Shown: in pieces, positions 29,527 through 49,297 of the stretch
How positions within the stretch are numbered: position 1 is the stretch's first letter
How the letters are laid out: each line of letters opens with the position of its first letter
NCBI RefSeq assembly: GCF_012163155.1
Contig: NZ_JAAVUN010000001.1
Coordinates: 62,001-126,000, forward strand
Direction: 5' to 3'
DNA from: Kocuria subflava
GTDB lineage: Bacteria; Actinomycetota; Actinomycetes; Actinomycetales; Micrococcaceae
Length of the DNA: 64,000 nt
Position numbers and translations under genes: made by a program
The notes under the pieces: generated by a model
Database searches by the model: none
What the model saw: only the letters and a program-made list of their open reading frames with translations
What the model was told of the DNA's origin: nothing

Positions 29527-29946
29527 ATGAGCCAGATCGGCAAGAACCTGCTGGGAGAACCCGACCCCACCCTGTTGGAGGGGAACCAGGAAATGGCCGG
29601 CCGAATCGAGGCTGGTGACGAGGCCGAGGACCTGGCGCGTTCCTTCCCCAAGGAGCAGCTGCCGTGGGCAGTCCTGGCGGAAGAAGCTCTGGCTGACGGG
29701 CGGACCCTGGAGGGTTACGCCTACGCCCGGGTGGGTTACCACCGTGGGCTGGATGCCCTGCGTGGCCACGGATGGAAGGGCCACGGCCCGGTTCCGTTCT
29801 CCCACGAACCGAACCGTGGCTTCCTCCGTGCTCTCTCAGCGCTGGGTCAGGCGGCCGCCGCCATCGGTGAGTTGGACGAGGCCGAACGCATCCAGAAGTT
29901 CCTCAACGACTCTGACCCTGAGGCAGCCCAGGAACTCCAGCGCTGA
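29527..29946 (+). CDS. DUF3151 family protein
   Basis: A 139-residue soluble protein of a family confined to actinobacteria. Typical features are GKNLLGEPDPTLLE at the start, YAYARVGYHRGLDALRGHGW in the middle, and VPFSHEPNRGFLRALSALGQAAAAIGE toward the end, a helical-repeat-like layout. The function is unknown. ATG 29527 follows GGAAAGGGAAGAAC. Its last 44 bases overlap the 3' end of the convergent metE reading frame. Confidence 0.88.
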   Translation: MSQIGKNLLGEPDPTLLEGNQEMAGRIEAGDEAEDLARSFPKEQLPWAVLAEEALADGRTLEGYAYARVGYHRGLDALRGHGWKGHGPVPFSHEPNRGFLRALSALGQAAAAIGELDEAERIQKFLNDSDPEAAQELQR

Positions 29947-33406: not shown

Positions 33407-33521
33407 CGCGCGGGTCTCCTTCTAGTGAACCCCGACAGAGGGTGCACGGGACCTACGGCCCGCCTGTCGCGCCTTCAACGGCTAAGGACGACGGTCCGGG
33501 GACCACGGAACACGGTTCAGC

Positions 33522-33610
33522 TCCATCGGTCCTGGCGGGAGCACCGTTCCTGAAAACAGGATGGTTGCTGCGGCGTCGACGAGCCAGGTCTCTCAGCCGC
33601 TCTGGATAGA
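33522..33610 (-). ncRNA. SAM riboswitch (S-box/SAM-I type) upstream of metF-metE
   Basis: The leader carries the S-box core: CCAGAG, then GAGAGACCTGGCTC, then GCAGCAACC, then GGTGCTCCCGCC, closing with GACCGATGG. The P1 helix pairs CTATC (near 33609-33605) with GATGG (33527-33523). A second copy at 49199-49297 keeps every conserved block and changes P1 to CCATC/GATGG, preserving the pairing. Downstream the leader can form a CGACAG/CTGTCG hairpin before the ribosome site, a possible expression platform. It binds S-adenosylmethionine and shuts off methionine synthesis when SAM is plentiful. Confidence 0.88.
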
Positions 33611-33620
33611 TAGCCAAACC

Positions 33621-33650
33621 AGTATAAGCCGATCGCCAAGGTTTCCGCAA
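33621..33650 (-). promoter_or_regulatory. Probable promoter of the metF-metE leader
   Basis: TTGCGG (33650-33645) and TATACT (33626-33621) with an 18-base spacer on the minus strand; transcription would begin about 5 bases before the riboswitch. The remainder of the 424-bp gap (33407-33830) holds only this leader and the purA leader. Confidence 0.6.
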
Positions 33651-33830
33651 GGACTCTGCCGTGAGGTATTTCCTCTTGTGACGCGCACTGTCACGGTGGG
33701 CCGTGGGCTGGGTGGTTCGGAATGCTGTCCCAGAACTCACCACCCGGGTGTGGCAGTCGGCGCGCTAGACTCGGGCAGTACACGACCGCAGACCGGTGCC
33801 ATCCGCGCCGAACTCAGGAGCGCATCAGAT

Positions 33831-35117
33831 ATGCCAGCGATCTCGATCGTCGGAGCCCAGTGGGGCGATGAAGGCAAGGGCAAGGCCACAGACATCTTGG
33901 GTGGCCGTGTTGATTTTGTGGTCAAACCCAATGGTGGCAACAACGCAGGTCACACGGTGGTTGTTGGCAGTGCGAAGTTCGAGCTCAAGCTCCTTCCCGC
34001 CGGTATCCTCTCCGAGCAGGCCACCCCTGTGATCGGCAACGGCGTGGTGGTCAACCCGCAGGCGTTGTTCGAGGAGATCGACGGCCTTGAAGCCCGCGGG
34101 GCGGACACCTCCAAGCTGCGCATCTCCGCCAACGCACACCTGGTGGCCCCGTACCACCAGACCATGGACCAGGTCACCGAACGGTTCCTGGGCAAGCGGG
34201 CCATTGGCACCACCGGGCGGGGCATCGGCCCGGCCTACATGGACAAGGTGGGCCGGCTGGGCATCCGGGTGCAGGACGTGCTGGATGAATCCATCCTGAC
34301 CCAGAAGATCGAGGGCGCCCTGCGGCAGAAGAACGAGCTCCTGGTCAAGCTCTACAACCGCCGCGCGATCGACACCCAGGAAGTGGTGGACTACTTCATG
34401 GGCTACGCGGATCGCCTGGCCCCCATGATCGTGGACTCCACCCGGCTGCTCAACGACGGCCTGGATGCAGGCAAGACCGTTCTGCTGGAAGGCGGTCAGG
34501 CCACGTTCCTGGACGTGGACCACGGCACCTACCCCTTTGTGACCTCCTCCAACCCGTCCACCGGCGGGGCTTGTGTGGGGGCTGGCATCGGCCCCACCCG
34601 GATGACCCGCTCCATCGGCATCATCAAGGCCTACACCACCCGCGTGGGTGCCGGTCCGTTCCCCACCGAGTTGTTCGACGACTGGGGTGAGCGCCTGCGC
34701 ACCGTGGGTGGCGAGTTCGGCGTGAACACCGGCCGTCCGCGGCGCACCGGGTGGTACGACGCCGTCATGGCCCGCCACGCCTCACGGATCAACGGCTTCA
34801 CGGACTACTTCCTGACCAAGCTGGATGTTCTGACCGGCATTGAGTCCATCCCGGTGTGCGTGGCCTATGAGGTGGACGGTGTGCGCCATGACGAAATGCC
34901 CATGACCCAGACCGAGTTCCATCACGCCAAGCCGATCTTTGAGAACTTTGCGGGGTGGACCGAGGACATCTCCGGTGCCCGTTCCATCGAGGACCTTCCG
35001 GCCAACGCCCAGACCTATGTGCGCGAACTGGAAGCCATGTCCGGCACCCGGATCTCCGCAATCGGCGTCGGGCCGGACCGTGAGCACACCATTGAGGTGC
35101 GCGACCTCATCGACTGA
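33831..35117 (+). CDS. purA: Adenylosuccinate synthetase
   Basis: A 428-residue GTP-dependent enzyme of AMP synthesis that joins IMP and aspartate. The N-terminal [11 protein letters not shown] is the P-loop signature with the catalytic Asp, [10 protein letters not shown] holds the catalytic His, [14 protein letters not shown] the IMP-binding region, and [13 protein letters not shown] the GTP/aspartate loop. The length is standard. ATG 33831 ([15 protein letters not shown]) is the family start, with AGGAG 10 bases upstream. It stands alone with its own terminator at 35130. Confidence 0.97.
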
Positions 35118-35129
35118 CAAGTCCGCCAA

Positions 35130-35188
35130 CGTTTGACAGGCAAATGACCGTTTCGGGGCAACCGAGGCGGTCATTTGCCTGTCAAACG
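35130..35188 (+). terminator. Long hairpin terminator after purA
   Basis: Perfect 21-bp arms (CGTTTGACAGGCAAATGACC...) with a 17-base loop, 12 bp after the purA stop. Confidence 0.85.
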
Positions 35189-35238
35189 GAGTACGCTTCG
35201 GCTGAAATCCACGCACTTCCCTGACCGATAGGCGCGCC

Positions 35239-36729
35239 ATGTCCGTGAACTCCTCTCCAGAACTGGAGACCCAACCTGAGGGTGAGGGACTGCGGCGCAG
35301 TCTGCACACCCGCCACATGACCATGATCGCCATGGGTGGCGCCATCGGCACCGGGTTGTTCGTTGCCTCCGGCAACTCCATCAACACGGCAGGCCCGGGT
35401 GGCGCGCTGGTGGCCTACATCGCCATCGGACTGATGGTGTACCTGCTGATGATGTCCTTGGGCGAGATGTCCGCCTGGCGGCCCACCGCAGGTTCCTTCG
35501 GAGATCACGCGGGACGCTACGTGTCGCCGTCGTTCGGGTTTGCGATCGGCTGGAACTACTGGTTCAACTGGGCCATCACCCTGGCCGCGGAGCTGGTGGC
35601 TGCAGCCCTGGTGATGCGCTACTGGTTCCCGGACGTCCCGGCGTGGATCTGGTCTGCGGGATTCCTGATCATCGTGTTCAGCCTCAACGCCCTGTCCACC
35701 CGCGCCTACGGTGAGGGTGAGTTCTGGTTGGCGGCCATCAAGGTGACGGCCGTGATCGTGTTCCTGGTCCTGGGCGTGCTGATGATCTTTGGCATCCTGG
35801 GCGGGGAAAGCCCCGGATTCGCCAACTGGACCACCGGGGATGCTCCCTTTGTGGGCGGTCCCATCACTATCCTGGCGATCTTCATGGTGGCCGGATTCTC
35901 CTTCCAGGGCACTGAGCTGGTGGGTGTTGCCGCAGGTGAGGCCAAGGACCCGGAAACCACCGTGCCCAAGGCCATCCGCACCGTGTTCTTCCGCATCCTG
36001 CTGTTCTACGTGGGTGCCATCACCGTGATCGGCTTCCTGCTGCCCTACACCCACCCCAACCTGTTGGCCTCCGGGGAGACGGAAGTGGCCATGTCCCCGT
36101 TCACCCTGGTGCTGCAGAACGCCGGTGTGGCTTTTGCCGCCTCCGTGATGAACGCCGTGATCCTGACCGCCATCCTCTCCGCCGGCAACTCCGGGCTCTA
36201 CGCGTCCACCCGCATGATCTGGTCCCTGGCCATGGAGGGCAAGGCCCCCACGTTCCTGCGCAAGCTCAACAAGCGTGGTGTGCCGATCTACGCGTTGATC
36301 GCCACCTCATCCTTTGGCCTGTTGGCCTTCCTGACCACGTTCATCGGTGAAGGTGCCGCCTACACCTGGCTGATCAATGCCTCGGCTCTGGCCGGATTCA
36401 TTGTGTGGGCCGGTATTGCCTGGACCCACTACAACTTCCGCAAGGCGTTCAAGGCTCAGGGGCGTTCCATCTCCGAACTGCCGTTCCGCGCCAAGTTCTT
36501 CCCGGTCGGGCCGATCATCGCCTTGGCCATGTGCCTGCTGGTGATCGTGGGCCAGAGCTACGAGGCCTTCATCAACGGCACCGTCACGCCCATGTCCTTG
36601 CTCTCCTCCTACATTGGGCTGCCGCTGTTCCTGGCCTTCTGGATCGGGCACAAGGTGATCACCAAGTCCCACCGTGTGGATCCCGCCCATGCTGATCTGT
36701 CCCGCAATCAGATGGATGTGACGCGCTGA
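35239..36729 (+). CDS. Amino acid permease (APC superfamily, AAT family)
   Basis: A 496-residue, 12-helix proton symporter. The AAT signature is clear: LHTRHMTMIAMGGAIGTGLFVASG in helix 1, GGALVAYIAIGLMVYLLMMSLGEMSAW in helix 2, and FQGTELVGVAAGEAKDPETTVPKAI between helices 6 and 7. By these motifs it resembles the lysine-specific (LysP) and general aromatic/branched permeases; which amino acid cannot be stated. ATG 35239 follows CGATAGGCGCGCC with a weak ribosome site. It is a single gene downstream of the purA terminator. Confidence 0.9.
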   Translation: MSVNSSPELETQPEGEGLRRSLHTRHMTMIAMGGAIGTGLFVASGNSINTAGPGGALVAYIAIGLMVYLLMMSLGEMSAWRPTAGSFGDHAGRYVSPSFGFAIGWNYWFNWAITLAAELVAAALVMRYWFPDVPAWIWSAGFLIIVFSLNALSTRAYGEGEFWLAAIKVTAVIVFLVLGVLMIFGILGGESPGFANWTTGDAPFVGGPITILAIFMVAGFSFQGTELVGVAAGEAKDPETTVPKAIRTVFFRILLFYVGAITVIGFLLPYTHPNLLASGETEVAMSPFTLVLQNAGVAFAASVMNAVILTAILSAGNSGLYASTRMIWSLAMEGKAPTFLRKLNKRGVPIYALIATSSFGLLAFLTTFIGEGAAYTWLINASALAGFIVWAGIAWTHYNFRKAFKAQGRSISELPFRAKFFPVGPIIALAMCLLVIVGQSYEAFINGTVTPMSLLSSYIGLPLFLAFWIGHKVITKSHRVDPAHADLSRNQMDVTR

Positions 36730-36768
36730 GAGGTGCAGTGGGGTTCGTCGTCGTGAACCCGCTGCGGC

Positions 36769-37095
36769 TCACAGGCTGATGACCACCAGGCCCGCCGCGC
36801 CCAGGAGCACCACCGCTGCTCCCAGGGCGATGGCGGACCCCACTTTTGGGCTGCCCTGCGGCTGCCGCATGGCGCGTACGGACTGCCTGTAACGGTTGCG
36901 CTGGGTGGTCCAGATGGTCAGTGCCACGGCCAGTGCTACTGCAAAGAGCCCCACCACGACGACGCCCTGTTGGTTGCCCCACCGCAGGAAAAAGGCTGCC
37001 ACGATCACAAACGCCATCAGCGTGCGGTTCCAGGCCAAGGTGGTGCGCTCGGGCTGGAGACCGGGATCATTCGGGTGGATGTGCGGGTGGCTCAT
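36769..37095 (-). CDS. DUF202 family membrane protein (second of a pair)
   Basis: A 108-residue protein with three helices. The family pattern ERTTLAWNRTLMAFVIVAAFFLRW appears near residue 17 (DUF202: R-T-x-L-AW-x-R-T), followed by VVVVGLFAVALAVALTIW and a C-terminal helix. The start MSHPHIHPNDPG overlaps the previous gene's stop by four bases. Relatives include YidH-type inner-membrane proteins of unknown function that often occur in pairs, as here. Confidence 0.8.
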   Translation of the reverse strand: MSHPHIHPNDPGLQPERTTLAWNRTLMAFVIVAAFFLRWGNQQGVVVVGLFAVALAVALTIWTTQRNRYRQSVRAMRQPQGSPKVGSAIALGAAVVLLGAAGLVVISL

Positions 37096-37514
37096 GGCAG
37101 GAGAAGCACCGCCAGCATGACCCCTGTGGCAACGGCGGCACCAACTGCCAGGATCGGGGCGATCCAGGGGAGGGGCAGGGGCAGTGAATGGCGCATGGCC
37201 CGCTCCAGGCGGATCCATCGCAGCGTGGCGCCGGCGGCAATGACCATGCCGATCAGCAGCAGGGCCACCGCCAGGCCGGTGCGGACCACCACCGGAAAGA
37301 CGTCCCCGGCAAAGGCTTCCAACGCCACACCACCGGCCAGAAACGCCAGGGCCGTGCGGATCCAGGCCAGAAAGGTGCGCTCGTTGGCCAGGGTGAAGCG
37401 TGGGTCCGGCTCAATGCCGCCGCCCAACACCCGCGCAGAGAGACCTGTGCGCTGGGCGAGGTGTTGCGGTGGGGTGCGTTCTGAGTGCTCAGGCTCGTGC
37501 GGAGAATCGGCCAT
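37092..37514 (-). CDS. DUF202/YidH family membrane protein (first of a pair)
   Basis: A 140-residue protein with a polar N-terminal region of about 40 residues and three helices. The family segment is FTLANERTFLAWIRTALAFLAGGVALEAF, followed by VVVRTGLAVALLLIGMVIAAG and ILAVGAAVATGVMLAVLLLP. ATG 37514 (MADSPHEPEHSE) is the likely start. It overlaps the second DUF202 gene by ATGA, so the two are translated together and probably work as a hetero-oligomer. Confidence 0.82.
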   Translation of the reverse strand: MADSPHEPEHSERTPPQHLAQRTGLSARVLGGGIEPDPRFTLANERTFLAWIRTALAFLAGGVALEAFAGDVFPVVVRTGLAVALLLIGMVIAAGATLRWIRLERAMRHSLPLPLPWIAPILAVGAAVATGVMLAVLLLP

Positions 37515-37600
37515 GCTCTTGATGCTAGATCCCCTGGGCTGGAGACCTTGGGGGTGGGCACCTTGGTGTCGTCGGGTGGTCAATCTGCCGGCTCATGGAA

Positions 37601-37658
37601 TTGGGCGGTCGACTTCCTGGCCCATCAGCGCTGACGGGCCAGGAAATCGACCACCCAA
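37601..37658 (-). terminator. Hairpin terminator of the VOC-family gene
   Basis: Arms of 23 bases with one mismatch (TTGGGCGGTCGACTTCCTGG...) and a 12-base loop containing TCAGCGCTGA, downstream of the minus-strand gene ending at 37705. Confidence 0.75.
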
Positions 37659-37704
37659 ACGTAAGGACCGAGCGAATCGAGCTCTCAACAGGTTGAGTGA
37701 GCCA

Positions 37705-38118
37705 TCACTGCCCGGAGATGTTCACGCTCCAGCGGATGCTGAACTTGTCCACCAGGTCTCCGTACTCATCGCCCCACATCTGCTCCTCCAGAGGTGTGGT
37801 CACCGTGCCACCCTCCGACAGGGCGGTGAAGTAGCCACGGAGGGCGGCGGCGTCGTTGCCGTGCAGGCACAGGGAAACCCCACCGTTGCCGCCGATGGGG
37901 GCCTCCATGACGGAAGGCACGTCAGCGGCCATGATGTGCATGCCGTTGGGGGCGTCCAACTGGCCGTGCATGACCCAATCGACCTCCGGGCCCTCGGTTC
38001 CCATGGCGCTGTGACGCATGATCTGGGGCTGCCCGCCGAACACGTTGGCGTAGAACTCCAGGGCCTCGGCGGCTTCACCGCGGAAGTTGAGATAAACGGT
38101 CAAGAACCGATCAGCCAC
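37705..38118 (-). CDS. VOC family protein (PhnB-like)
   Basis: A 137-residue glyoxalase/bleomycin-resistance fold protein of the PhnB subgroup. It has the typical LTVYLNFRGEAAEALEFYANVFGG start, a central ADVPSVMEAPIGGNGGVSLCLHG region, and the PhnB-like end EEQMWGDEYGDLVDKFSIRWSVN. These are small metal-binding or stand-alone proteins of mostly unknown reaction; PhnB is named for its place in phosphonate operons but is not needed for that pathway. It stands alone, with a terminator downstream. Confidence 0.88.
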   Translation of the reverse strand: MADRFLTVYLNFRGEAAEALEFYANVFGGQPQIMRHSAMGTEGPEVDWVMHGQLDAPNGMHIMAADVPSVMEAPIGGNGGVSLCLHGNDAAALRGYFTALSEGGTVTTPLEEQMWGDEYGDLVDKFSIRWSVNISGQ

Positions 38119-38297
38119 GGGGGCCTCCTTGGGTCAGGCGCGCTGCTCTCACCGGTGTATGTCTCCGCAAGTGTAGGGGCCACGACGTCGCCAGGATGCA
38201 GGCGGCCTCCTGTGAACTGGCCCACAGGTGGGCGTAAAATTAGAGGTGCCCCGTCGAAGGATCCACCGGCCGGAAGTTGAACAAAGAGGTTCACGCC

Positions 38298-39309
38298 ATG
38301 AAGGCTCTCGTTTATCACGGACCCGGCAACCGCGTGTGGGAAGAGGTGCCGGACCCCCAGATCCAGGACCCCACCGATGTGATCGTCAAGGTGGAGACCA
38401 CCACCATCTGCGGTACTGACCTGCACATCCTCAAAGGGGACGTCCCGGCGGTGACTGACCGCCGCATCCTGGGCCACGAGGCCGTGGGAACCATCACGGA
38501 AGTCGGGGATGCTGTGACCGGCTTGTCCGTGGGGGACCGTGTGTTGGTACCTGCGGTGACCAACTGCGGCAAATGCTCCTACTGCAAGGCCAACCAGCCC
38601 TCCCACTGCCAGACCTTGGGCGGCATCGGCTGGGTGTTCGGTCACCTGATCGACGGCACCCAGGCCGAATACGTGCGTGTGCCGTTTGCGGAGACCTCGG
38701 TTGACCGCGCACCGGAAGGTCTGGATGACGAAGACCTGATCTTCCTGGCCGACTCCCTTCCCACGGGGTTCCAGATCGGCATCTTCAACGGCAACACCAA
38801 ACCCGGTGACACCATGGCGATCGAGGGAGCCGGACCCGTGGGGCCGGGTGATCACCATTGACCTGGTCGAGAACCGCATGAACAAGGCCCTGGAGCTCGG
38901 TGCCACGGACTCCGTGAACGCCGGGGACCCGGACCTGGTGGAGAAGGTCAAGCCCATGGCGCCGGACGGCCTGGGTGTGGACGTTGCCATTGAAGCCGTG
39001 GGCATCCCACAGACCTTCAAGACCTGCCTGGAGATCGTGCGCCCCTACGGCACCGTGGCCAACGCCGGTGTGCACGGCAAGGCGGTGGAACTGCCCATTC
39101 AGGACATGTGGATCTCCAACGTGACTCTGCGCATGGGCCTGGTGGACTGCAACACCGTGGGCAAGCTGCTCAACATGGTGCGCGCCGGTCGCCTCAACGC
39201 CCGCGCCATGGCCACCCACCACTTCAAGCTGGATCAGATCGAGGAGGCCTACGACCTCTTTGCCAACGCCGCCGAACACCAGGCGGTCAAGGTGGTGCTG
39301 ACGGCCTGA
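38298..39309 (+). pseudogene. Zinc-dependent alcohol dehydrogenase with a deletion in the Rossmann fold
   Basis: The N-terminal catalytic domain is intact from MKALVYHGPGNRVWEE: CGTDLHILKGD (first zinc ligand Cys), GHEAVG, and the structural-zinc Cys cluster NCGKCSYCKANQPSHC. At 38838-38850 the NAD-binding motif begins correctly (GAGPVG) and then jumps directly to GRVITIDLVENRM in another frame. The roughly 13 residues that normally lie between them (helix of the beta-alpha-beta fold) are missing and the frame has shifted. The C-terminal half then runs normally to 39309. A deletion of some 37-40 bp explains both, and no active enzyme is expected. ATG 38298 follows AAAGAGG. Confidence 0.85.
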
Positions 39310-39354
39310 GCCAAGCTTGCGTCTGGGCGTTTGCCTGGGCTCTCACCTGAGCAG

Positions 39355-39414
39355 ACTTTGGGCATGGATAGGGCGGATTCCGAGTCTGGAATCCGCCCTA
39401 TCCATGCCCAAAGT
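39355..39414. terminator. Long perfect hairpin between convergent genes
   Basis: Perfect 27-bp arms (ACTTTGGGCATGGATAGGGC...) with a 6-base loop, between the broken alcohol dehydrogenase and the convergent M13 peptidase gene. Confidence 0.85.
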
Positions 39415-39481
39415 TCTTGCGGCCCCTACCCCGGGGTCGGAGGCAGCGACGCCGCCGCCCGTTCACCCTGGGTGCATCACC

Positions 39482-41545
39482 TCACCAGATGCGCACGCGG
39501 TCCTCCGGGGCGAGCCACATGGTGTCCGTGTCGGTCACACCGAAGGCCTCGTGGAAGGCATCGATGTTGCGGGCGGTCTGGTTGGCCCGGAACTCGTTGG
39601 GGGAGTGCACGTCCACGGCCAGGCGCTGAGCTACCGTCTCGTCCCGGGCCTTCTGCTGCCACACGAAAGCCCAGGACAGGAAGAGCTTCTGCGCGGGGGT
39701 CAGCCCGGCGTCGTCGGTGTCGGAGAAGGCGGAAGGGTCAGCGGAGGCGGGGTCCGTGTCGGCCAGCTCCGAGGAGGCCGGCACCGGATCCGCCACCCCG
39801 CGGGAGTGTTCCCACGCCTTGTAGGTGATGGACAGCCCGCCCAGATCCCCGATGTTCTCGCCCAGGGTCATGCGCCCGTTCACGGACGGGGCATCCTCAG
39901 AACCGGCGAGCTGTTCGGGAACCAGGCCGTCGTACTGCTCCACCAGCTTGCCCGTGCGTTCCTCAAAGGCGGCGCGGTCGGAGTCGGTCCACCAGTTGCG
40001 CAGGCGGCCGTCGCCGTCGGCGGTCGAGCCCTTGTCGTCAAAGCCGTGACCGATTTCGTGGCCGATCACAGCCCCGATGGCCCCGTAGTTCACGGCGTCA
40101 TCGGCCTCCTCGTCAAAGAACGGGGGCTGGAGGATGGCTGCCGGGAACACGATTTCGTTGCGCAGCGGGTGGTAGTAGGCGTTGACGGTCTGCGGGGTCA
40201 TGAGCCATTCGTGCTTCTCCACGGGCTGCCCGGCCTTGCGGATCAGCTCGGCCAGTTCGAACTCGGAGGTCCGCACAATGTTGCCCACCAGGTCATCGGC
40301 CCGGATTTCCAGGGAGGAGTAGTCCTTCCACTTCTCCGGGTAGCCGATCTTGGGGGTGAAGGCGGAGAGCTTTTTCAGGGCCTCCGCGCGGGTGTCGTCG
40401 GTCATCCAGTCCAGCGTCTGGATGGAGGACCGGTAGGCGGCCAGCAGATTGGCCACCAGGTCATCCATGCGTGACTTGGCGGTGGGGGAGAAGTGCCGCT
40501 CCACGTAGAGCTTGCCCACGGCCTCACCCAGCACTCCGTTGACCAGCCCCACCCCGCGCTTCCACCGTTCCTTCAACTCGGGAGTTCCGGAGAGTGTGGT
40601 GCCGTAGAAGGCAAAGTCCTCGTTCACGAACGCGCTGGACAGATACGCTGCACGCCCCGTGATCACGCGCCACCGCGCCCAGGACTTCCACTGCTCCAGA
40701 CGCGCCGGGGTCAGCAGCTCCTCCAGCCCGGTGAAGAACGACGGCTGGGCATTCACCACGGTTTCCATTGCCGATTCCGGAACCCCCAGACCCTCGACGA
40801 CGACGCCCGACCAATCGAATGTTCCCGCCGACTCCGTCAGCTCGGACCAGCTGAACGGGTTGTACATCTTGGTCAGGTCCCGGACCTCCACCTTGTCCCA
40901 GTGATGGGTGGCAATGGCGGTTTCCAGTTCGAAGGCCCGCTGGGCCTGATCCCCGGCGTCGTTGAATCCGGCGTGGGCGAACATCCTCTGGATGTGCCCC
41001 AGGTACTGCTCCCGGATCTGGGCGTGGGCTTCCTCCCGGTAGTACTCCTCATCCGGTAGACCCAGCCCGGCCTGGCCCACGAACACCAGGTTGCGGGTGG
41101 GGTCCCCGGGGTCGGCATCCGTGTCCACACCCAGAACGGAGCCGATGCCGCGAGCCAGCAGCGTGCCGAACAGCTTCTGCAATCCCGCGACGTCGGTCAC
41201 CGCGTCCACGGCATCCAAGTCAGGCTGCAAGGGGGCAGCACCCAAGGACTCGATGTGTTCCTGATCCATGAAAGAGGCGTACAGATCAGCCACCTTGGAC
41301 TCCACCGAGCCCGGTTCCCCGGCTTCAACGCCGGTGATGATGCCGCGCACGGCTTCCTCGGCACGGTCGCGCAACACCATGAACGCGCCGGTCAGAGGCT
41401 TGTCATCAGGGATTTCCACCGAATCCAGCCACGGGCCGTTGACGTGGCGGAACAGATCGTCCTGCGCCCGGACCGAGGTGTCAAAGGTGGAGGGGGTGAG
41501 CACCGTCAGGGCGCCGTCGTCGTGGGTCTGATCATGGTGGGTCAT
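39482..41545 (-). CDS. M13-family metallopeptidase (neprilysin/PepO type)
   Basis: A 687-residue zinc endopeptidase. The active site is complete: VIGHEIGHGFDD with His496, Glu497 and His500, the third ligand Glu in GENIGDLGG, substrate-binding VNAYYHPLRNEIVFPAAIL, and the C-terminal end with DxMWLAPEDRVRIW (family end xxxCxVW). There is no signal peptide or N-terminal helix, so it is a cytoplasmic oligopeptidase of the PepO type. The conserved terminal Cys-x-Val-Trp is changed to VRIW. ATG 41545 starts the conserved region. Confidence 0.93.
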   Translation of the reverse strand: MTHHDQTHDDGALTVLTPSTFDTSVRAQDDLFRHVNGPWLDSVEIPDDKPLTGAFMVLRDRAEEAVRGIITGVEAGEPGSVESKVADLYASFMDQEHIESLGAAPLQPDLDAVDAVTDVAGLQKLFGTLLARGIGSVLGVDTDADPGDPTRNLVFVGQAGLGLPDEEYYREEAHAQIREQYLGHIQRMFAHAGFNDAGDQAQRAFELETAIATHHWDKVEVRDLTKMYNPFSWSELTESAGTFDWSGVVVEGLGVPESAMETVVNAQPSFFTGLEELLTPARLEQWKSWARWRVITGRAAYLSSAFVNEDFAFYGTTLSGTPELKERWKRGVGLVNGVLGEAVGKLYVERHFSPTAKSRMDDLVANLLAAYRSSIQTLDWMTDDTRAEALKKLSAFTPKIGYPEKWKDYSSLEIRADDLVGNIVRTSEFELAELIRKAGQPVEKHEWLMTPQTVNAYYHPLRNEIVFPAAILQPPFFDEEADDAVNYGAIGAVIGHEIGHGFDDKGSTADGDGRLRNWWTDSDRAAFEERTGKLVEQYDGLVPEQLAGSEDAPSVNGRMTLGENIGDLGGLSITYKAWEHSRGVADPVPASSELADTDPASADPSAFSDTDDAGLTPAQKLFLSWAFVWQQKARDETVAQRLAVDVHSPNEFRANQTARNIDAFHEAFGVTDTDTMWLAPEDRVRIW

Positions 41546-41607
41546 GCGGCCAGACTAAACGGGAGGGTGTGGCGGCACCCAAGGTCATCGCCCACCGCGT
41601 AAACACG

Positions 41608-41642
41608 CGACCCCCGGTCTCCGCTGTGGGAGCCGGGGGTCG
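41608..41642 (-). terminator. Hairpin downstream of the FMN reductase pseudogene
   Basis: CGACCCCCGG pairs with CCGGGGGTCG, extended by CTCC/GGAG with a one-base bulge, between 41545 and 41658. Confidence 0.65.
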
Positions 41643-41657
41643 GCGGGGGTGAGAGGC

Positions 41658-42206
41658 TCAGGCCTGGTAGCGCTTGATGGAGGCCTCAACCTCTTCAATC
41701 AGGGAGTTCAGCACGCCGTTGATGTGGTCATTGGGCACCAGCTGGCCGTCCTCCATGTTGTTGGCCAGGTTGACCTCCACGGCGGAGCGGACCACGTGCT
41801 GGTGGAAGTTGGCCAGGATCTGGCGCCAGTGCTCCACGGCGCGCACGCCACCGCTGAACCCGTAGCCCACCAGGCCGGTGGACTTTGCAGCCCACTCCGG
41901 GCCCAAGGTGTCCACGGCCTCCTTGAAAGAACCCGGGATCGAGTGGTTGTACTCGGGGGTCACAAAAATGTAGCCGTCGCAGGAATCGATGGTCTGGGAC
42001 CAGCGGGTGACCTCGGCGTCCTAGTACTCCTTGCCGGCCGCCATGGGAACGGTGGAGGCGGCCATGCGGGGAAGCTCAAAGGTCTTGAGGTCGATCAGCT
42101 CGAACTCGGCACCTCCCTTGGCCTCGGCAGTTTCCCTGACCCAGTTGGCCACCTGTTCGCCGTTGCGGCCGGCGCGGACGGATCCCAGGATGATCCCGAT
42201 CTTCAT
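41658..42206 (-). pseudogene. NADPH-dependent FMN reductase, in-frame amber stop
   Basis: A flavodoxin-like quinone/FMN reductase of about 182 codons. MKIGIILGSVRAGRNGEQVANWV is the NAD(P)H-dependent FMN reductase start with the phosphate loop GSVRxGRxG. After GKEY a TAG (42023-42021) interrupts the frame, and DAEVTRWSQTIDSCDGYIFV then TPEYNHSIPGSFKEAVD (family motif TPEYNxSxPG) continue in the same frame to 41658. A single CAG to TAG change within CCAGG would explain it. It is broken unless the stop is read through. The N-terminal fragment of 61 residues is too short to function. Confidence 0.85.
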
Positions 42207-42346
42207 GCTGACTCCTTGGTTCATGCAGGGTGGATGCACGTCCCTTACTTAGGTGACGTGACACGTTTTTGCCAGCCTAGCGTTTCTTCAGGCCGGTGGC
42301 GGATGATGTGAGTCACGTACAGCAACATCACCATTCAGGGGAGACC

Positions 42347-42955
42347 ATGACGCACCAGGACCCGTCCGGCCAGCACATTCACGAAGACCCCACCGCCGCT
42401 GACTCCGACCGTTGGCTGCGGGAGGACCCGGCTCCGGCTGATTACCGCGCGCCCCGGCTGGCCGGAGCCATGCCCTCCGACGACGCCGCCGCAGCAGCAC
42501 CCGCTTCCGCTTCCGCTTCTGATGGCGCTGGGCTGGAGAAGATCCGTGCCCTGGCTTCCGCAAAGGACCCCGTCCCGGTGCTCAACAGCCATCCCGGTCA
42601 GCTGGATGAACGGCTGGGGGTCACCTATCTGGAGGCATCCAAGGACCGAGTGGTGGCGCGCATGCCGGTGGAGGGCAACCGGCAACCCATGGGGCTGCTG
42701 CACGGTGGTTCCACCATTGCCCTGTGCGAGTCGGTGGCCTCCATTGGCGCCTTCCTGCACGGCGCCGAGTTGGGCAAGGCGGCCGTGGGGGTGGACGTGA
42801 ACGCCACGCACCACAAGTCGGCCACATCAGGTTTTGTGACCGCAACGGCCACCCCCATCAGGATGGGAAAGACGGCCACGAGTCACGAGGTCGTCGTCGT
42901 CGATGATGCCGGTGAGCGCGTCTGCACGGCCCGCATCACCTGCTTCCTGAAGTGA
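42347..42955 (+). CDS. Hotdog-fold thioesterase (PaaI/YdiI type)
   Basis: A 202-residue protein. The hotdog domain covers the last 125 residues: LGVTYLEASKDRVVARMPVEGNRQPMGLLHGGSTIALCES, with the HGG and the acid (ES) motif of PaaI-like acyl-CoA thioesterases, then AVGVDVNATHHKSATSGFVTATATPIRMGKT. The first 75 residues are a polar, Ala/Ser-rich extension not usual for the family. ATG 42347 is chosen for the GGGGAG site just upstream. It probably hydrolyses aryl- or 1,4-dihydroxy-2-naphthoyl-CoA-like thioesters; the substrate is not readable. Confidence 0.88.
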   Translation: MTHQDPSGQHIHEDPTAADSDRWLREDPAPADYRAPRLAGAMPSDDAAAAAPASASASDGAGLEKIRALASAKDPVPVLNSHPGQLDERLGVTYLEASKDRVVARMPVEGNRQPMGLLHGGSTIALCESVASIGAFLHGAELGKAAVGVDVNATHHKSATSGFVTATATPIRMGKTATSHEVVVVDDAGERVCTARITCFLK

Positions 42956-42962
42956 CCCCTCT

Positions 42963-43024
42963 GCCGAGACCGAGGTTTCTGCCCGATGCGTGCCGGTGAA
43001 CCGGGCGGAAACCTCGGTCTCGGC
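42963..43024. terminator. Bidirectional hairpin between thioesterase and TetR gene
   Basis: Arms of 17 perfect bases (GCCGAGACCGAGGTTTC) extended imperfectly by TGCCCG/CGGGCG, between convergent genes. Confidence 0.8.
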
Positions 43025-43026
43025 GG

Positions 43027-43680
43027 TCAGAGGAGGGTGCGGAATCCTGTCAGCAGGGCTTCCAGGGCGAGTTCGAAAGCCTGGTCCGCACCTTCGGCCG
43101 GGTCAGCGGTCCGGACAGCGACGACGCCCGTGAAGGTGGGTGCCAACTCCGCCAACTTGCCGGGGTTGAACAATCCGCCGGGGGCCGTGGCGTCGTAGGC
43201 GGAGCCGAACAGCAGAGACTCCACGGCCACGATCATGTTGACCACCTGGCCCGGTGGGAATCCCGCAGTGACCAGAGCGGCTGCCACGGATTCATACATG
43301 CACAAGGTGTGCGGGGCATCGGCCACCGGCAACACCGCCATCACCGGGATCAGCTCCACATTGCGGGCGTAGACCTCTCGGTAGGACCGGGCCCACAGCG
43401 TGAGCGCCTGATCCCAAGGCAGCGTGCCAAAGCCGCTGCAATCAATCTCCGCATTCAACGCATCCTGGACACCCAGCAGCACGTGGTGTTTGGACGGGGT
43501 GTGGTTGTAGAGCGCGGAGACGGAGACCCCCAGGTCAGAGGCCAACGCGGACATGGTCAGTGCCTTGACCCCGCGGGTGTGGATGATCTTGGTGGCGGCC
43601 GAGGTGATGCGCTTGGGGCTCAGAACAGCGGAGGTGGGGCGGCCGCGTCGTCGTGCTGTTGCTGCCGGTTCCTGCTTCAC
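43027..43680 (-). CDS. TetR-family regulator, probable repressor of the putrescine oxidase gene
   Basis: A 217-residue regulator. The HTH is VKALTMSALASDLGVSVSALYNHTPSKH at about residues 38-65, preceded by a basic arm (ARRRGRPTSA). The C-terminal domain is of the TetR type (PVMAVLPVADAPHTLCMYESVAAAL). GTG 43680 has GGAG 8-9 bases upstream. It is divergent from the putrescine oxidase gene across 123 bp that contain an inverted repeat at 43769-43785, so it likely controls that gene and may sense a polyamine or its product; the ligand is inference. Confidence 0.85.
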   Translation of the reverse strand: MKQEPAATARRRGRPTSAVLSPKRITSAATKIIHTRGVKALTMSALASDLGVSVSALYNHTPSKHHVLLGVQDALNAEIDCSGFGTLPWDQALTLWARSYREVYARNVELIPVMAVLPVADAPHTLCMYESVAAALVTAGFPPGQVVNMIVAVESLLFGSAYDATAPGGLFNPGKLAELAPTFTGVVAVRTADPAEGADQAFELALEALLTGFRTLL

Positions 43681-43768
43681 GCGGTTGCTCCAGGTGGCTG
43701 TGGTGGTGCGTTGCTTGTGGGTAAAAAGTACCCGGCCGGGGGTTGACGCAATCGTCCTCCTACGCCTT

Positions 43769-43785
43769 AATGAATCACATTCATT
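43769..43785. promoter_or_regulatory. Inverted repeat AATGAAT-CAC-ATTCATT
   Basis: Seven-base perfect arms with a 3-base spacer, AT-rich in a GC-rich gap, 18 bp before the putrescine oxidase start and between the divergent TetR gene and its presumed target. Typical size and place for a TetR operator. Confidence 0.6.
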
Positions 43786-43803
43786 TTAAGTGAAGGAGGC
43801 CAC

Positions 43804-45030
43804 ATGTCAGATCAGAGGACCCTGGGCAGCGTTGAGGCGATCGAGCGTGACGTGGTGGTGGTGGGTGCGGGACCGGCAGGGCTCATGGCCGCTCGCACCC
43901 TCCAGGCTGCAGGCAAGTCCGTGGCCGTTCTGGAGGCTCGTGACCGTGTGGGCGGCCGAACCTGGTCCCGGGTGATTGACGGCGCCTTCCTGGAAATCGG
44001 AGGCCAGTGGGTCTCTCCGGATCAGACCGAACTATTGGGGTTGATCCATGACCTGGGGCTGGAAACATTTGCCCGGCACCGTGACGGGGATTCGGTCTAC
44101 ATTGCCCCGGACGGCTCCAAACACACCTACACCGGGCCCACCTTCCCCGCCGGTGAACAGACCATTGCGGAGATGGAACGGCTGATCGGGATCCTGGATG
44201 ACCTGGCCGCGGAACTGGGAGCCACTGAGCCCTGGGCACATCCCAAAGCCCGCGAGCTGGACACCGTTTCTTTCCACCACTGGCTGCGTGAGCTCTCCGA
44301 GGACGAGGCGGCGTGCAACAACATCGGCATCTATGTGGCCGGGGGCATGCTGACCAAGCCCTCCCATTCCTTCTCCACCCTGCAGGCCGTGCTCATGGCA
44401 GCCTCCGCAGGGTCCTTCTCCAACCTGGTGGACGAGGACTTCATCCTGGACCGCCGTGTGGTGGGTGGCATGCAGTCCGTCTCGGAAAAGATGGCCGAGC
44501 AGCTGGGGGAGGACGCCGTCTTCCTGGACACTCCCGTGCGCACCATCCAGTGGGGTGGTCCTGAGGACACGTACGCCGAGTACGTTCCCGGCGCGGGGGT
44601 CACCGTGTGGTCGGAGACGGTCACCGTGAAGGCCCAGCAGGTGATTGTGGCGGTTCCGCCGAACCTGTACTCCCGCATCTCCTTTGAACCCCCGCTGCCG
44701 CGCCTGCAGCACCAGATGCACCAGCACCAATCGCTGGGCATCGTGATCAAGGTCCATGCGGTTTACCCAACCCCGTTCTGGCGTGACAAGGGTCTGTGCG
44801 GAACTGGATTCGGAGCCGCCGAGGTGTCCCAGGAGGTGTATGACAACACCAACCACGGGGACACCCGCGGCACACTGGTGGGCTTTGTCTCTGATGAGAA
44901 GGCAGATGAGGTCTTCAAACTGCCTGCCGAGCAGCGCAAGCAGCGCATCCTGGAAAGCCTCTCCCACTATTTGGGGGAGGAGGCACTGACCCCGGAGGTC
45001 TACTACGAATCCGACTTCGGCTCGGAGGAC
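43804..45030 (+). pseudogene. puo: Putrescine oxidase-like amine oxidase, 3' end deleted
   Basis: A flavin amine oxidase matching Kocuria-type putrescine oxidase as I recall it: FAD loop VVVVGAGPAGLMAARTL, VLEARDRVGGRTWS, EIGGQWVSPDQTELLGLI, and ILDRRVVGGMQSVSEKMAEQ. Homology is continuous to about Asp409 (YYESDFGSED). Then the sequence becomes the antisense of an MHS transporter gene, and the frame stays open as nonsense to 45651. The last 60 or so residues, including the C-terminal FAD-binding segment near the flavin ring, are missing, so the hybrid protein of 615 residues should be inactive. ATG 43804 follows GAAGGAGG. Confidence 0.85.
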
Positions 45031-46369
45031 CTCTTCCACGTGGAGGTCACGGCCCTGGTCCGACTTGCGCACCATGGAAACGGCGATCAGGGAGACCAAG
45101 CTGATGGCGGCCATGTAGATGCCGATCATCCACCCCTGGCCCGTCTGGTTCAGGATCAGCTGCGCAATCATGGGGGCAAAGGCGCCACCGATGATCGCCC
45201 CGAACGCGTAGCCGATGGACACTCCGGAGTAACGCACGCGGGCCGGGAACATCTCCGCGTACATGGCCGACTACGGTCCGTAGGAAGGGCCCAGGCCGAT
45301 GGTCAGCAGGAAGATCGCGGCGGCGAACAGCGGCAGGGAGGCCGTGTCCAGCAGGAACCACATGGGGATGGACCACAGGATCAGGATGACGTAGCCGATC
45401 TGGAAGGTCAGGCGGCGTCCGATGCGGTCGGAGATGTAACCACCGAACATGGTGAAGATCAGCCAGCCCACACCGCCCACCAGGGAGGCGATCAAGGTGT
45501 CCGTGCGTTCCATGCCCAATGTCCTGGTGCCGTAGGAGGCGAAGAAGGCGATCACCATGTAGCCCAGGGCGTTGTTGCCGGCAAAGATGAATGCGGCCAG
45601 GCTGACCTCGCGCTTGTGGTTCTTCACAAGCTGCCCCAGGGGAGCGGATGATTCGGCCTTGCGCAGCTGCATCTCCTTGAACACGGGGGATTCATCCACG
45701 GTCATACGGATCAGATAGCCCACCACAATCAGCACCACGGAGGACAGGAACGGAACGCGCCAACCCCAGGCCTCAAACTGTTCGGGGGTGAGCATGGAGG
45801 TCATCAGGAACATGAAACCGGTGGCCAGCAGCAAGCCCAGGGGCACGCCCACCTGGGGGTAGGCGCCGGACAAGCCGCGCTTGTGCCGCGGTGCGTGTTC
45901 CACGGCCATCAGCGCGGCACCGCCCCATTCGCCACCCGCGGAGAAGCCCCGCAGGATGCGCAGAAACATCAAAAGGATGGGCGCCCACAAGCCGATGGTG
46001 GCGTAGGTGGGCAGCAGGCTGATCAATGTGGTGGCGCCACCCATGCCCACCAGGGTGATCACCAGAACCACCTTGCGTCCGAACTTGTCACCCACGTGCC
46101 CAGCCACAATGGCGCCCAGCGGGCGGAACAGGAAGCTGATGCCCAGAGATGCCCAGAGATGCCCATGAGACCACCTGGGCCATGGCTGCGTTTTCCTCGC
46201 CCAGCGGGTTGAAGAAGTGGGTGGCCAGGATGAAACCTGCAGCCTGCGCGTAAATGTAGAAGTCGTACCACTCGATGGTGGTACCCACCAGTGTGCCCGC
46301 AAGGACCCTCTTCTCCTCGCGAGTCATCTCATGGCCGTGTGTGGAGCCAGAGCTCGCCGTAGTGCTCAT
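45031..46369 (-). pseudogene. MHS-family (metabolite:H+ symporter) MFS transporter, multiply broken
   Basis: An MHS/ShiA-type transporter recognisable from GTTIEWYDFYIYAQAAGFIL at the N-terminus, GDKFGRKVVLVITL, RGFSAGGEWGGAALM, and PARVRYSGVSIGYAFGAIIGGAFAP. It has three lesions. A 10-bp tandem duplication at 46141-46160 shifts the frame after about residue 70. A TAG at 45273-45271 replaces the conserved Gln in YGPQ. The 3' end stops at about 45030-45045, where sequence of the convergent putrescine oxidase begins. MHS members carry carboxylates, betaines or shikimate; neighbours suggest an amine- or acid-related substrate, but only as inference. The start ATG at 46369 is intact. Confidence 0.85.
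46141..46160. repeat. 10-bp tandem duplication causing a frameshift
   Basis: GCCCAGAGAT occurs twice in direct succession. Removing one copy restores the frame of the MHS transporter (SWASLGISFLFRPLGAIV). This is a replication-slippage lesion, not a homopolymer miscall. Confidence 0.9.
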
Positions 46370-46411
46370 GGATCTCTTCCGTGAGGTGGGGGCGAGGCCG
46401 CCCCGATTTAC

Positions 46412-46429
46412 TTACCGATTGATCGGTAA
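46412..46429. promoter_or_regulatory. Inverted repeat TTACCGAT-TG-ATCGGTAA
   Basis: Eight-base perfect arms with a 2-base spacer, 43 bp upstream of the MHS transporter start, in AT-richer sequence. TetR-type operators often have this form; the matching regulator is not obvious in the window. Confidence 0.5.
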
Positions 46430-46547
46430 TTAACGGCATACTAAGTGGCGCTGTGATGGCTGTCACCAGTATTCGGCACATCAGATACGATTTTCTTTGG
46501 TGGACGCGGAGGGGCGCTCCACGCCGTCGTCGTGACCTCACTAAAGC

Positions 46548-46607
46548 GCCGAGTAGGCCTTTTGATCGCTCCTCAGCGCTCAGGGGCGATCAAAAGGCCT
46601 ACTCGGC
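46548..46607 (-). terminator. Hairpin terminator after the distal short-metE gene
   Basis: Arms of about 22 bases (GCCGAGTAGGCCTTTTGATC...) around a loop with TCAGCGCTCAG. It is near-identical to the hairpin at 47889-47948 that follows the paralogous gene. Confidence 0.8.
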
Positions 46608-46667
46608 GGGTGTGGCGGGTGTGGCCCGGTCGGCTGGGGCCCGAGTGGTGGGGAGGGGACCGGGGGA

Positions 46668-47861
46668 TCAGAACAACCGCCAGGTTGCGATCCGCGCCCC
46701 CTCCACCAAGGTTTCCAACTTGGCGGCAGCAATCTGCGGGTGAATCCGGCCGCCCAGCCCGCAGTCGGTGGAGGCGATCACGCGCTCCGGGCCCACAGCA
46801 GAAGCAAAGCGCTCGATTCGGTCGGCCACGAGCTCCGGGTGCTCTACCACGTTGGTGGCGTGGGAGACCACACCGGGGATGATCACCTTGTCAGCGGGCA
46901 GTTCCAGGTCCTTCCAGATCTTCCACTCGTGTTCGTGGCGCACGTTGGCGGCTTCGAACGAGTAGGCCCCGGCGTTGATCTCCAGCATGAGTTCGGCGAT
47001 GTGACGGAACTCGATGTCGGTGGTGTGCGGACCGTGCCAGGAGCCCCAGCACAGGTGGAACCGCACCAGCTCGGCAGGGATCCCTTCCAGGGCGGTGTTG
47101 ATGGCATCCACTCGCTTCCGGGTGAAGGCAAGGTAGTCCTCCACGGTGGGTTCGGGGTTGATCTGATCCCAGTTCTCCGCGATGGAGGGGTCATCGATCT
47201 GCACGATCAGCCCAGCGTCCGTGATGGCCTTGTACTCCTCACGCATGGCTTGGGTGCAGGCGGCCAGGACGTCGTCCTCGTTGCCGTAGTGGTTGTCCTC
47301 AAGGCGCGCGCAGGATCCGGGGGAGAGCGCAGCCAGGTAGCCCTGCGTGGCCCCGGACTTGTCCATGGCGGCCTTCAGATTGGCGATGTCGCGCTGCACA
47401 GCCTCCTGGCCGACGTAGCGGATGGGCCCGTTGAACACCGGGAACGGTGCGGGTTTGCCGGTGAAGATTCCCGACGACGGGTCCTGGTACGCCTGCGCAA
47501 ACTTCCCCCAGTCGCGGCGATCCCCAAAGCTGGTGAGTTTCACGTTTCCGGGTTCGGAACGGTGGACGGGCTGGTCGGCCAAGGTGCGGGTACCGGGGGC
47601 CAGCCCGTCCAGGCGGGCAAAGATGTAGTGCCACCAGGCGCCGTAGTCCACGTCTTCAGCCATGGCGTGGCCGTATTCGCCGTCGTTGACGACGTCGATC
47701 CCCACCTCCGTCTGGCGGGCCACCACCTGGTCCACTGCGGTGGCCAACAGGCGGTCGTAGTCCTGCCCGGCAACGCGGGCTTTTGCGGCGTCGATCAGGT
47801 CCCGGGTGCGGGGAAGGGAACCGGCGTGGGTGGTCAGGATGCGGTTGGTTGAGTGCTGCAT
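46668..47861 (-). CDS. Short MetE-like (cobalamin-independent) methyltransferase, distal copy
   Basis: A 397-residue protein corresponding to the C-terminal catalytic half of MetE. TTHAGSLPRTRDL is the start, the zinc ligands His and Cys appear in RFHLCWGSWHGPH and Cys in ASTDCGLGGR, and PGVVSHATNVVEHPELVADRI precedes the last strand. Such short MetE proteins lack the N-terminal folate half and probably use another methyl donor. ATG 47861 has GGAG upstream. It is a paralog of the next gene upstream, both on one transcript led by the SAM riboswitch at 49199, though a hairpin lies between them. Confidence 0.88.
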   Translation of the reverse strand: MQHSTNRILTTHAGSLPRTRDLIDAAKARVAGQDYDRLLATAVDQVVARQTEVGIDVVNDGEYGHAMAEDVDYGAWWHYIFARLDGLAPGTRTLADQPVHRSEPGNVKLTSFGDRRDWGKFAQAYQDPSSGIFTGKPAPFPVFNGPIRYVGQEAVQRDIANLKAAMDKSGATQGYLAALSPGSCARLEDNHYGNEDDVLAACTQAMREEYKAITDAGLIVQIDDPSIAENWDQINPEPTVEDYLAFTRKRVDAINTALEGIPAELVRFHLCWGSWHGPHTTDIEFRHIAELMLEINAGAYSFEAANVRHEHEWKIWKDLELPADKVIIPGVVSHATNVVEHPELVADRIERFASAVGPERVIASTDCGLGGRIHPQIAAAKLETLVEGARIATWRLF

Positions 47862-47888
47862 GAAAGTCTCCAGGTGTGTGTCAATGCT

Positions 47889-47948
47889 GCCGAGTAGGCC
47901 GTTCGATCGCCGCTCAGCGCTCAGGGGCGATCAAACGGCCCACTCGGC
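47889..47948 (-). terminator. Hairpin between the two short-metE genes
   Basis: Arms GCCGAGTAGGCCGTTCGATC and complement with one mismatch, loop TCAGCGCTCAG. It would attenuate the distal gene relative to the proximal one, and it is a duplicate of the hairpin at 46548. Confidence 0.75.
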
Positions 47949-47971
47949 GAAGAAGAAAGGGAGGGGGTGGA

Positions 47972-49180
47972 TCAGAAGAGGCGCTCGGTGGCCAGGCGGG
48001 CGCCTGCCGTGAGGGACTCCAGCTTGGCGAATGCGATCTGCGGGTGCAGGCGTCCGCCCAGACCACAGTCGGTGGAGGCCACCACGCGCTCGCGGCCCAC
48101 AGCGGAGGCGAAGTTCTCAATCCGGTCCGCCACCAGCTCCGGGTGTTCCACCACGTTGGTGGAATGGGAGACCACACCGGGGATGATCACCTTGTCATCG
48201 GGCAGATCGGCCTCAGCCCACAGCTTCCACTCGTGGGCGTGACGCACGTTGGCAGCCTCGAAGGAGTAGCCACCGGCGTTGATGGACAACAGCGGTTTGA
48301 GCAGGTGCTTGAGTTCCAGGTCCGTGGTGTGCGGGCCGTGCCAGGATCCCCAGCACAGGTGGAAGCGGATCTGGTCCTGGGGCAGCCCGCGCAGTGCGTG
48401 ATTCAGGGCCTCGATCCGCAACTGGATGAACCCCAGGTAGTCCTCCACGGAGGGTTCGGGGTTGATCTGGTCCCAGGATTCGGCGATCGACGGGTCATCG
48501 ATCTGCACGATCAGTCCCGCGTCCGTGATGGCCTTGTACTCCTCACGCATGGCATCGGCGCACGCGTAGACCAACTCCTCATCGGTCTTGTAGTACTCGT
48601 TGGTCACCCGCGCACAGGAGCCCGGGGACAGTGCCGCCACAAAACCCTGGGTGGCGCCGGTGTGCTCCAATGCGGACTTCAGATTGCGAATGTCCGCGGC
48701 CACCGCCTCCTGACCCGTGTAGGTCAGCGGACCGGTGATCTTGGGTTGCGTGACGGCCTTGCGCGCGGTCAGGATTCCCGACGACGGATCCTCGTATGCC
48801 TCCCTGAACCTCTCCCGGTCACGGCGGTCCGTGAAGGTGGTCAGCACAATGTTGCCCGGGGAGGATCGGCGTTTTTCCGTGGTGGCCCAGCGGTCCTCGT
48901 CGGAAGGGCTCAATCCGCCCAGACGGGAGAACGAGTAGTTCCACCACGCCCCGTAGTCCACGGAGGAGGACATGGTGTGCCCGTATTCGCCGTCGTTGAC
49001 GACGTCGATCCCCAGCTGACGCTGCTTGGCCACGATGTCCACAACACCCTGCTGCATGGTGCTCACCAGCTGGTCCCAGGTGATGGACCCGTCCTGGTAG
49101 GCCTGATTGGCTTCCAACAGCTCCGGAGTACGGGGCAGGGAGCCCACGTGTGTGGTTTGGATGTGGTCAGAATTCAGCAT
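47972..49180 (-). CDS. Short MetE-like (cobalamin-independent) methyltransferase, proximal copy
   Basis: A 402-residue paralog of the gene at 46668, with the same layout: TTHVGSLPRTPELLEANQAY, zinc ligands in RFHLCWGSWHGPH and ASTDCGLGGR, PGVVSHSTNVVEHPELVADRI, and identical stretches such as EEYKAITDAGLIVQIDDPSI. It is the first gene after a SAM riboswitch, so its job lies in methionine synthesis from homocysteine or recycling of a methylated sulfur compound; the methyl donor is unknown. ATG 49180 is taken as start; an in-frame GTG at 49192 sits almost on the AAAGGA site. That site overlaps the 3' strand of riboswitch P1. Confidence 0.88.
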   Translation of the reverse strand: MLNSDHIQTTHVGSLPRTPELLEANQAYQDGSITWDQLVSTMQQGVVDIVAKQRQLGIDVVNDGEYGHTMSSSVDYGAWWNYSFSRLGGLSPSDEDRWATTEKRRSSPGNIVLTTFTDRRDRERFREAYEDPSSGILTARKAVTQPKITGPLTYTGQEAVAADIRNLKSALEHTGATQGFVAALSPGSCARVTNEYYKTDEELVYACADAMREEYKAITDAGLIVQIDDPSIAESWDQINPEPSVEDYLGFIQLRIEALNHALRGLPQDQIRFHLCWGSWHGPHTTDLELKHLLKPLLSINAGGYSFEAANVRHAHEWKLWAEADLPDDKVIIPGVVSHSTNVVEHPELVADRIENFASAVGRERVVASTDCGLGGRLHPQIAFAKLESLTAGARLATERLF

Positions 49181-49198
49181 GCGTGATTGCACGTCCTT

Positions 49199-49297
49199 TC
49201 CATCGGTCCCGGCGGGAGCACCTTGAGTGACCAGCGGGTCACATCATGGTTGCTGCGACATCAACGAGCCAGGTCTCTAAGTCGCTCTTGATGGGTA
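49199..49297 (-). ncRNA. SAM riboswitch (S-box/SAM-I type) upstream of the short-metE pair
   Basis: On the minus strand CCCATCAAGAG opens the P1 and K-turn region, followed by AGAGACCTGGCTC, GTCGCAGCAACC, a TGACC/GGTCA hairpin, GGTGCTCCCGCC and closing GACCGATGG. All blocks match the metF-metE leader. The 3' strand of P1 (GATGGA) runs directly into GGAAAGGA, the ribosome site of the first gene, so SAM binding would hide the site and block translation rather than transcription. Confidence 0.88.

Follow-up and report, generated by a model that had tools for sequence, protein, structure and literature searches.

P4-less SAM-I-type leaders, probably OFF switches, precede a fused MetF-MetE frame and a pair of short MetE-like proteins in Kocuria subflava

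Are the two similar leaders that lie before two unlinked methionine loci of Kocuria subflava S-box riboswitches, and what would that say about the genes they precede? The question arises in a stretch of 64,000 nucleotides, here called the window, for which an initial annotation had proposed S-box leaders at 33522-33610 and 49199-49297. A cmscan of the whole window against Rfam found two matches over the gathering score of any family, both to the SAM-I (S-box) family RF00162 (gathering cut-off 44.4 bits) and both on the minus strand. The proposed leaders were thus recovered, at coordinates that agree within about 2 bases:

33520..33612, minus strand: SAM-I (S-box) aptamer 1, P4-less, upstream of metF-metE (RF00162, 58.6 bits, E 5.5e-11)
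33609-33605 with 33527-33523, minus strand: P1 of aptamer 1, CTATC with GATGG
49197..49297, minus strand: SAM-I (S-box) aptamer 2, P4-less, upstream of the short-MetE pair (RF00162, 47.6 bits, E 8.8e-8)
49294-49290 with 49204-49200, minus strand: P1 of aptamer 2, CCATC with GATGG

The two leaders are identical at 75 of 93 aligned bases, and model R1, whose own alignment includes both sequences, scores them at 99.1 bits (aptamer 1) and 88.2 bits (aptamer 2). It had been remarked that their P1 helices vary and keep pairing; this is correct as a description, and as evidence it is weak, the difference being a single C-to-U change that leaves a U-G pair. As judged from the sequences, stronger evidence for pairing is found in P2, where G-C in leader 1 corresponds to A-U in leader 2; both bases have changed, and 12 of 44 Micrococcaceae sequences have the same double change.

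Both aptamers contain P1, P2, P2b, PK-1 and P3, with P4 absent and no room for it in either leader, and since P4 is absent we file them as a SAM-I variant and not as canonical SAM-I. One could then suppose that they belong to another class of the SAM clan, SAM-IV or SAM-I/IV, and merely resemble SAM-I: SAM-IV too lacks P4, according to PMC6890682, and aptamer 2 stands only about 3 bits above the Rfam cut-off. We consider this very improbable. At both leaders it is the SAM-I model that matches, as the initial annotation had it, and the models of SAM-I/IV (RF01725) and SAM-IV (RF00634) match neither; in searches of the whole genome the former had no match at all and the latter had five, none of them at these leaders. 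Moreover, the leaders have PK-1, which SAM-I/IV lacks according to PMC6890682, and the short-MetE locus has no room for the P5 and PK-2 of SAM-IV, its start codon following P1 by 19 nt.

To what extent the absence of P4 is a settled trait can be judged from relatives. In the 44 Micrococcaceae sequences, which were chosen by a pattern requiring CTGGC, GCAACC, GGTGC and RATGG, the cells of P1, P2, P2b, PK-1 and P3 are paired at 99.4-100%, and double changes occur in P2 (G-C to A-U in 12 sequences, C-G to U-A in 1), in P2b (A-U to G-C in 5) and in P1 (1), with none in P3 or PK-1. The invariance of P3, of one P1 strand and of one PK-1 strand is partly built in, because the picking pattern fixes them. 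Four of five whole-structure measures were reached by none of 500 shuffles, and the fifth, which counts further pair types, by 499 of 500. Within P2, a K-turn-like sequence with a G-A motif and a three-base bulge can be recognised by eye, in sequence only. All PK-1 pairs are Watson-Crick (CUGG with CCAG) in 42 of the 44 sequences, leader 2 having one U-G pair; within Micrococcaceae PK-1 varies too little to show covariation.

The loss of P4 is close to complete among the top hits of the family. Among the top 30 Micrococcaceae loci ranked by the canonical RF00162 model, several of which are near-identical relatives, 29 lack P4 (28 of 29, and the thirtieth), and all 61 parsed hits (of 63) of a model built mostly from such P4-less sequences have just 18-19 nt from GGTGC to the end of P1. 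The one exception beside these 29, a Micrococcaceae aptamer at L119:1503-1614, carries a hairpin where P4 would stand. On the other hand, all 28 readable loci of the top 30 from the phylum have P4 (L160 judged by eye), in a list that favours P4-bearing forms because it was ranked by score against a P4-bearing model. A further 19 phylum loci, picked mainly for short match length, gave 14 without P4 and 5 with it. P4-less forms therefore predominate among the top family hits and are also present elsewhere in the phylum. Outside the family, a pattern test of PK-1 found both outer pairs standard in 4 of 14 P4-less rows and, of 27 P4-bearing rows, in 9 of the 26 that could be parsed, and 5 of the 14 P4-less rows pair when the register is shifted by one base (by eye); with so mixed a test, PK-1 covariation outside Micrococcaceae is only suggestive. 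Some Arthrobacter SAM-I variants have a very long P3 arm and reach 165-174 nt in all (L031:8345-8510, L037:6311-6476, L037:3969-4133, L034:6289-6462, L047:6384-6557).

The regulator is also widespread. Counting SAM-I matches at E 0.001, with those over the cut-off in brackets, we found it in 247 (219) of 295 Micrococcaceae genomes, belonging to 27 of 32 genera, and in 145 (139) of 296 genomes sampled from the phylum. The search for further copies in relatives that had been called for thus found them in abundance, and the view that S-box leaders are less typical of actinobacteria has to be given up, since by these counts they are ordinary both in the family and in the phylum. SAM-IV was found in 294 of the 295 Micrococcaceae genomes, and the sole genome without it, G139, has SAM-I; if both searches took the same 295 genomes, this suggests that the two classes coexist in 246 of the 247 genomes with SAM-I. 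The regulator itself is hence of an ordinary kind, and what is unexpected is the loss of P4 in the family, together with the MetF-MetE fusion described below.

In Kocuria subflava itself there are three SAM-I matches, so that the count of two copies given earlier holds for the window, with its two methionine loci, and falls short for the genome. The third lies on contig C146 ahead of an Acs-like gene; downstream on that strand come a MetY-like frame (a putative name) and a CoA-binding protein. The intergenic region in question, at L004:10748-11076, holds two leaders in opposite orientation: this SAM-I on the minus strand and, before a luciferase-like monooxygenase gene, a SAM-IV on the plus strand. 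Three other SAM-IV leaders are upstream of two Cys/Met PLP enzymes and of an NlpA (MetQ-type) lipoprotein, and for the fifth, at L008, no clear target emerged. A clean division of SAM-I and SAM-IV by pathway step was considered and is ruled out by the third SAM-I, at the acs/metY-like locus.

How much meaning should be given to the loss of P4? It may be a neutral quirk without functional significance, the whole finding then amounting to an ordinary S-box regulon, and we give this reading almost an even chance: SAM-I turns up often in both the family and the phylum, and P4-less aptamers occur in other families of the phylum as well (the 14 of 19 loci chosen mainly for short match length). At the same time, P4 is missing almost throughout from the top family hits (29 of 30), and the pairs of PK-1 are all Watson-Crick in 42 of 44 sequences, though not in leader 2 itself, which suggests a settled alternative scaffold. 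A broader hypothesis would have Micrococcaceae and scattered Actinomycetota using a distinct P4-less SAM-I scaffold between SAM-I and SAM-IV, with SAM-I placed, not cleanly, on methyl-transfer enzymes and SAM-IV on sulfhydrylation and uptake, and with the short MetE pair forming a further family of folate-independent methionine synthases. We hold it to be doubtful, the more so since parts of it are opposed by the third SAM-I locus and by the folds described below. No description of a P4-less SAM-I was found in the literature, as judged from listings and with subscription papers mostly outside reach.

The metF-metE of the initial annotation, downstream of aptamer 1, is a single open frame of 1167 codons:

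29903..33406, minus strand: MetF-MetE fused open frame, 1167 aa, with MTHFR, Meth_synt_1 and Meth_synt_2 domains
32360..32362, minus strand: GTG within the frame, preceded by AGGAG; possible internal start of a free MetE, conserved (as GTG or ATG) in the seven fused Kocuria frames
33416..33423, minus strand: Shine-Dalgarno-like sequence AGAAGGAG of the metF-metE frame
33505..33510, minus strand: UUCCGU, predicted partner of AUGGAG (the P1 3' strand) in an anti-P1 hairpin when P1 is open

Of 27 Kocuria genomes, 7 have MetF and MetE in a single frame without a stop, as do two genomes of another Micrococcaceae genus (G081, G118). Among seven further candidates, five (G061, G145, G098, G002, G077) have no single frame over both genes; G061 had been counted as an eighth Kocuria fusion from equal frame lengths, but a stop separates its genes. 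In the linker of all seven Kocuria fusions AGGAG is retained and is followed after 7 nt by GTG or ATG, and because of this a free MetE may also arise by internal initiation. We found no description of such a fusion in the literature, with subscription papers mostly outside reach.

The expression platforms of the two leaders differ, with about 110 nt after the aptamer at metF-metE and a direct overlap of Shine-Dalgarno sequence and P1 at the short-MetE locus. At metF-metE, the motif UUCCGU just after P1 is invariant in the seven aligned Kocuria leaders of fused frames. When folding was done with the P1 5' strand barred, its six bases had a pairing probability of at least 0.93 in all seven, and the observed anti-P1 score was reached by 1-5 of 150 shuffles per leader; as the leaders are related, they are not seven independent cases. 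We hypothesise that, with P1 open, the P1 3' strand would pair with UUCCGU within the platform of about 110 nt, and that SAM binding should break this anti-P1 hairpin and lower translation through some rearrangement. How the ribosome would sense the change did not emerge from thermodynamic folding of the P1-closed and P1-open states, which was tried as an explanation of the readout and did not provide one: with P1 open, Shine-Dalgarno accessibility clearly rose in just 1 of 7 leaders, start-codon accessibility fell in 5 of 7, against an OFF model, and across ten folded metFE leaders Shine-Dalgarno accessibility showed no consistent change. The folds did not favour a second anti-P1 candidate seen by eye about 20 nt before the Shine-Dalgarno sequence (CUCUGUCGG or CUCCAUCGG).

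This lack of a consistent effect on the metFE Shine-Dalgarno sequence, together with the length of the platform and its strong hairpins, is what one might expect if control were exerted by transcription termination or by Rho instead of at translation. We think this rather unlikely, though far from negligible, as no terminator-like site was found in 33340-33700 and no U-tract follows the hairpins in ten metFE leaders (by eye); the former result favours translational control at this locus, without proving it.

At the second locus the arrangement is much more compact:

49194..49200, minus strand: Shine-Dalgarno-like GAAAGGA, its first base being the last base of P1
47972..49180, minus strand: short MetE-like protein 1, Meth_synt_2 only, starting at ATG 49180-49178 as judged from relatives
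46668..47861, minus strand: short MetE-like protein 2, Meth_synt_2 only, 63.5% identical to protein 1

The listed open reading frame of protein 1 begins at GTG 49192, as against the ATG at 49180-49178 taken from relatives. Among named sequences, the short-MetE protein is matched best by one from Kocuria soli (91% identity), and the nine that follow also belong to Kocuria. In the best 80 of 259 relatives, a SAM-I leader lies directly upstream (within 400 nt) of the short-MetE homologue in 50, the match at L058 being weak (21 bits), and upstream of a neighbouring gene in 3 more; the model behind these matches was itself built partly from leaders of this kind. In the other 27 the leader is absent both at the gene and in its vicinity, and an Rfam scan of 12 of them and of L058 gave no SAM-I over the cut-off; three of the relatives scanned have SAM-IV matches downstream of the short-MetE gene. 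In 45 of the 50 leader-bearing relatives, the final base of P1 is also the first of the GAAAG(GA) stretch. Because the Shine-Dalgarno-like stretch starts there, a closed P1 should block translation, an arrangement that matches a direct-occlusion platform presented in PMC2258182. We propose that SAM binding would stabilise P1 at this locus and that the stabilised helix would block the ribosome directly, turning translation off at high SAM. The tight register of Shine-Dalgarno sequence and P1 makes the short MetE genes likely to be SAM-repressed, and so likely methionine synthases; the tie between these proteins and SAM level proposed at the outset is in this sense borne out, as an inference, by the leaders directly upstream in 50 of 80 relatives.

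The proteins themselves are compatible with such a role. Among Pfam families, only PF01717 (Meth_synt_2) matches both, and the folate-binding N-terminal half of MetE is absent. The residues HxC, E and DCG together with S, E and D, which we take to be zinc ligands and homocysteine-binding residues, align with MetE in both proteins. Part of the basis for these roles is PMC7857596. Both short proteins therefore keep these residues and lack the folate-binding N-terminal domain, the two features of core methionine synthases, and as far as sequence goes they are most likely SAM-repressed methionine synthases. Neither protein scores over the cut-off of any NCBIfam model, so the earlier statement that their methyl donor is unknown stands. 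Clustering the neighbours of the 80 relatives brought out purA, a uracil-DNA-glycosylase-like gene, fba and a HAD hydrolase (putative names), as well as a metB-like gene (also putative) near short MetE in 10 loci, and no obvious methyl-donor partner.

Taken together, the model scores, the conserved pairing and the Shine-Dalgarno register lead us to regard both leaders as very probably P4-less SAM-I-type OFF switches, with the locus-specific readouts proposed above. The aptamer would consist of P1, P2 with its K-turn-like sequence, PK-1 and P3; that it binds SAM, that it acts in the OFF direction and that it is read out at translation is what we infer from these features. If P4-less SAM-I is indeed spread across most of a family, it would offer a natural minimal scaffold on which the role of P4 could be tested, and it would bridge SAM-I and SAM-IV, both of which are present in these genomes. 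Moreover, with the short MetE genes likely SAM-repressed, their methyl donor becomes a testable question.

Among known riboswitches, SAM-I (RF00162) is closest, sharing P1, P2 with the K-turn-like sequence, P2b, PK-1, P3 and the core sequences, with scores over the cut-off, whereas the canonical P4, one of the four textbook helices, is absent from these leaders; PMC6890682 gives SAM-I both P4 and a kink-turn. SAM-IV (RF00634), which in the same source has no P4 and carries an extra P5 and PK-2, resembles the leaders in lacking P4 and having PK-1 and is present in five copies in the same genome, but its model misses both leaders and its P5 and PK-2 would find no room at the short-MetE locus. 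SAM-I/IV (RF01725) shares the clan and the core and differs in having P4 and no PK-1 (PMC6890682) and in that its model matches nowhere in this genome. Among known genes, yxjH of B. subtilis is likewise MetE-like and under an S-box, being listed as S-box regulated in a table of PMC3498285 and named as a MetE-like methionine synthase in PMC6004538; the likeness is one of description, and the Kocuria short proteins differ in reaching no NCBIfam cut-off. The core methionine synthases MesA-MesD, as described in PMC7857596, share with the short proteins a MetE catalytic domain that lacks the folate-binding N-terminal half, and the zinc and homocysteine residues align. The short proteins are so far assigned to none of the four families, and a search of this genome for MesX (PF08908) gave no match, control genomes being equally silent.
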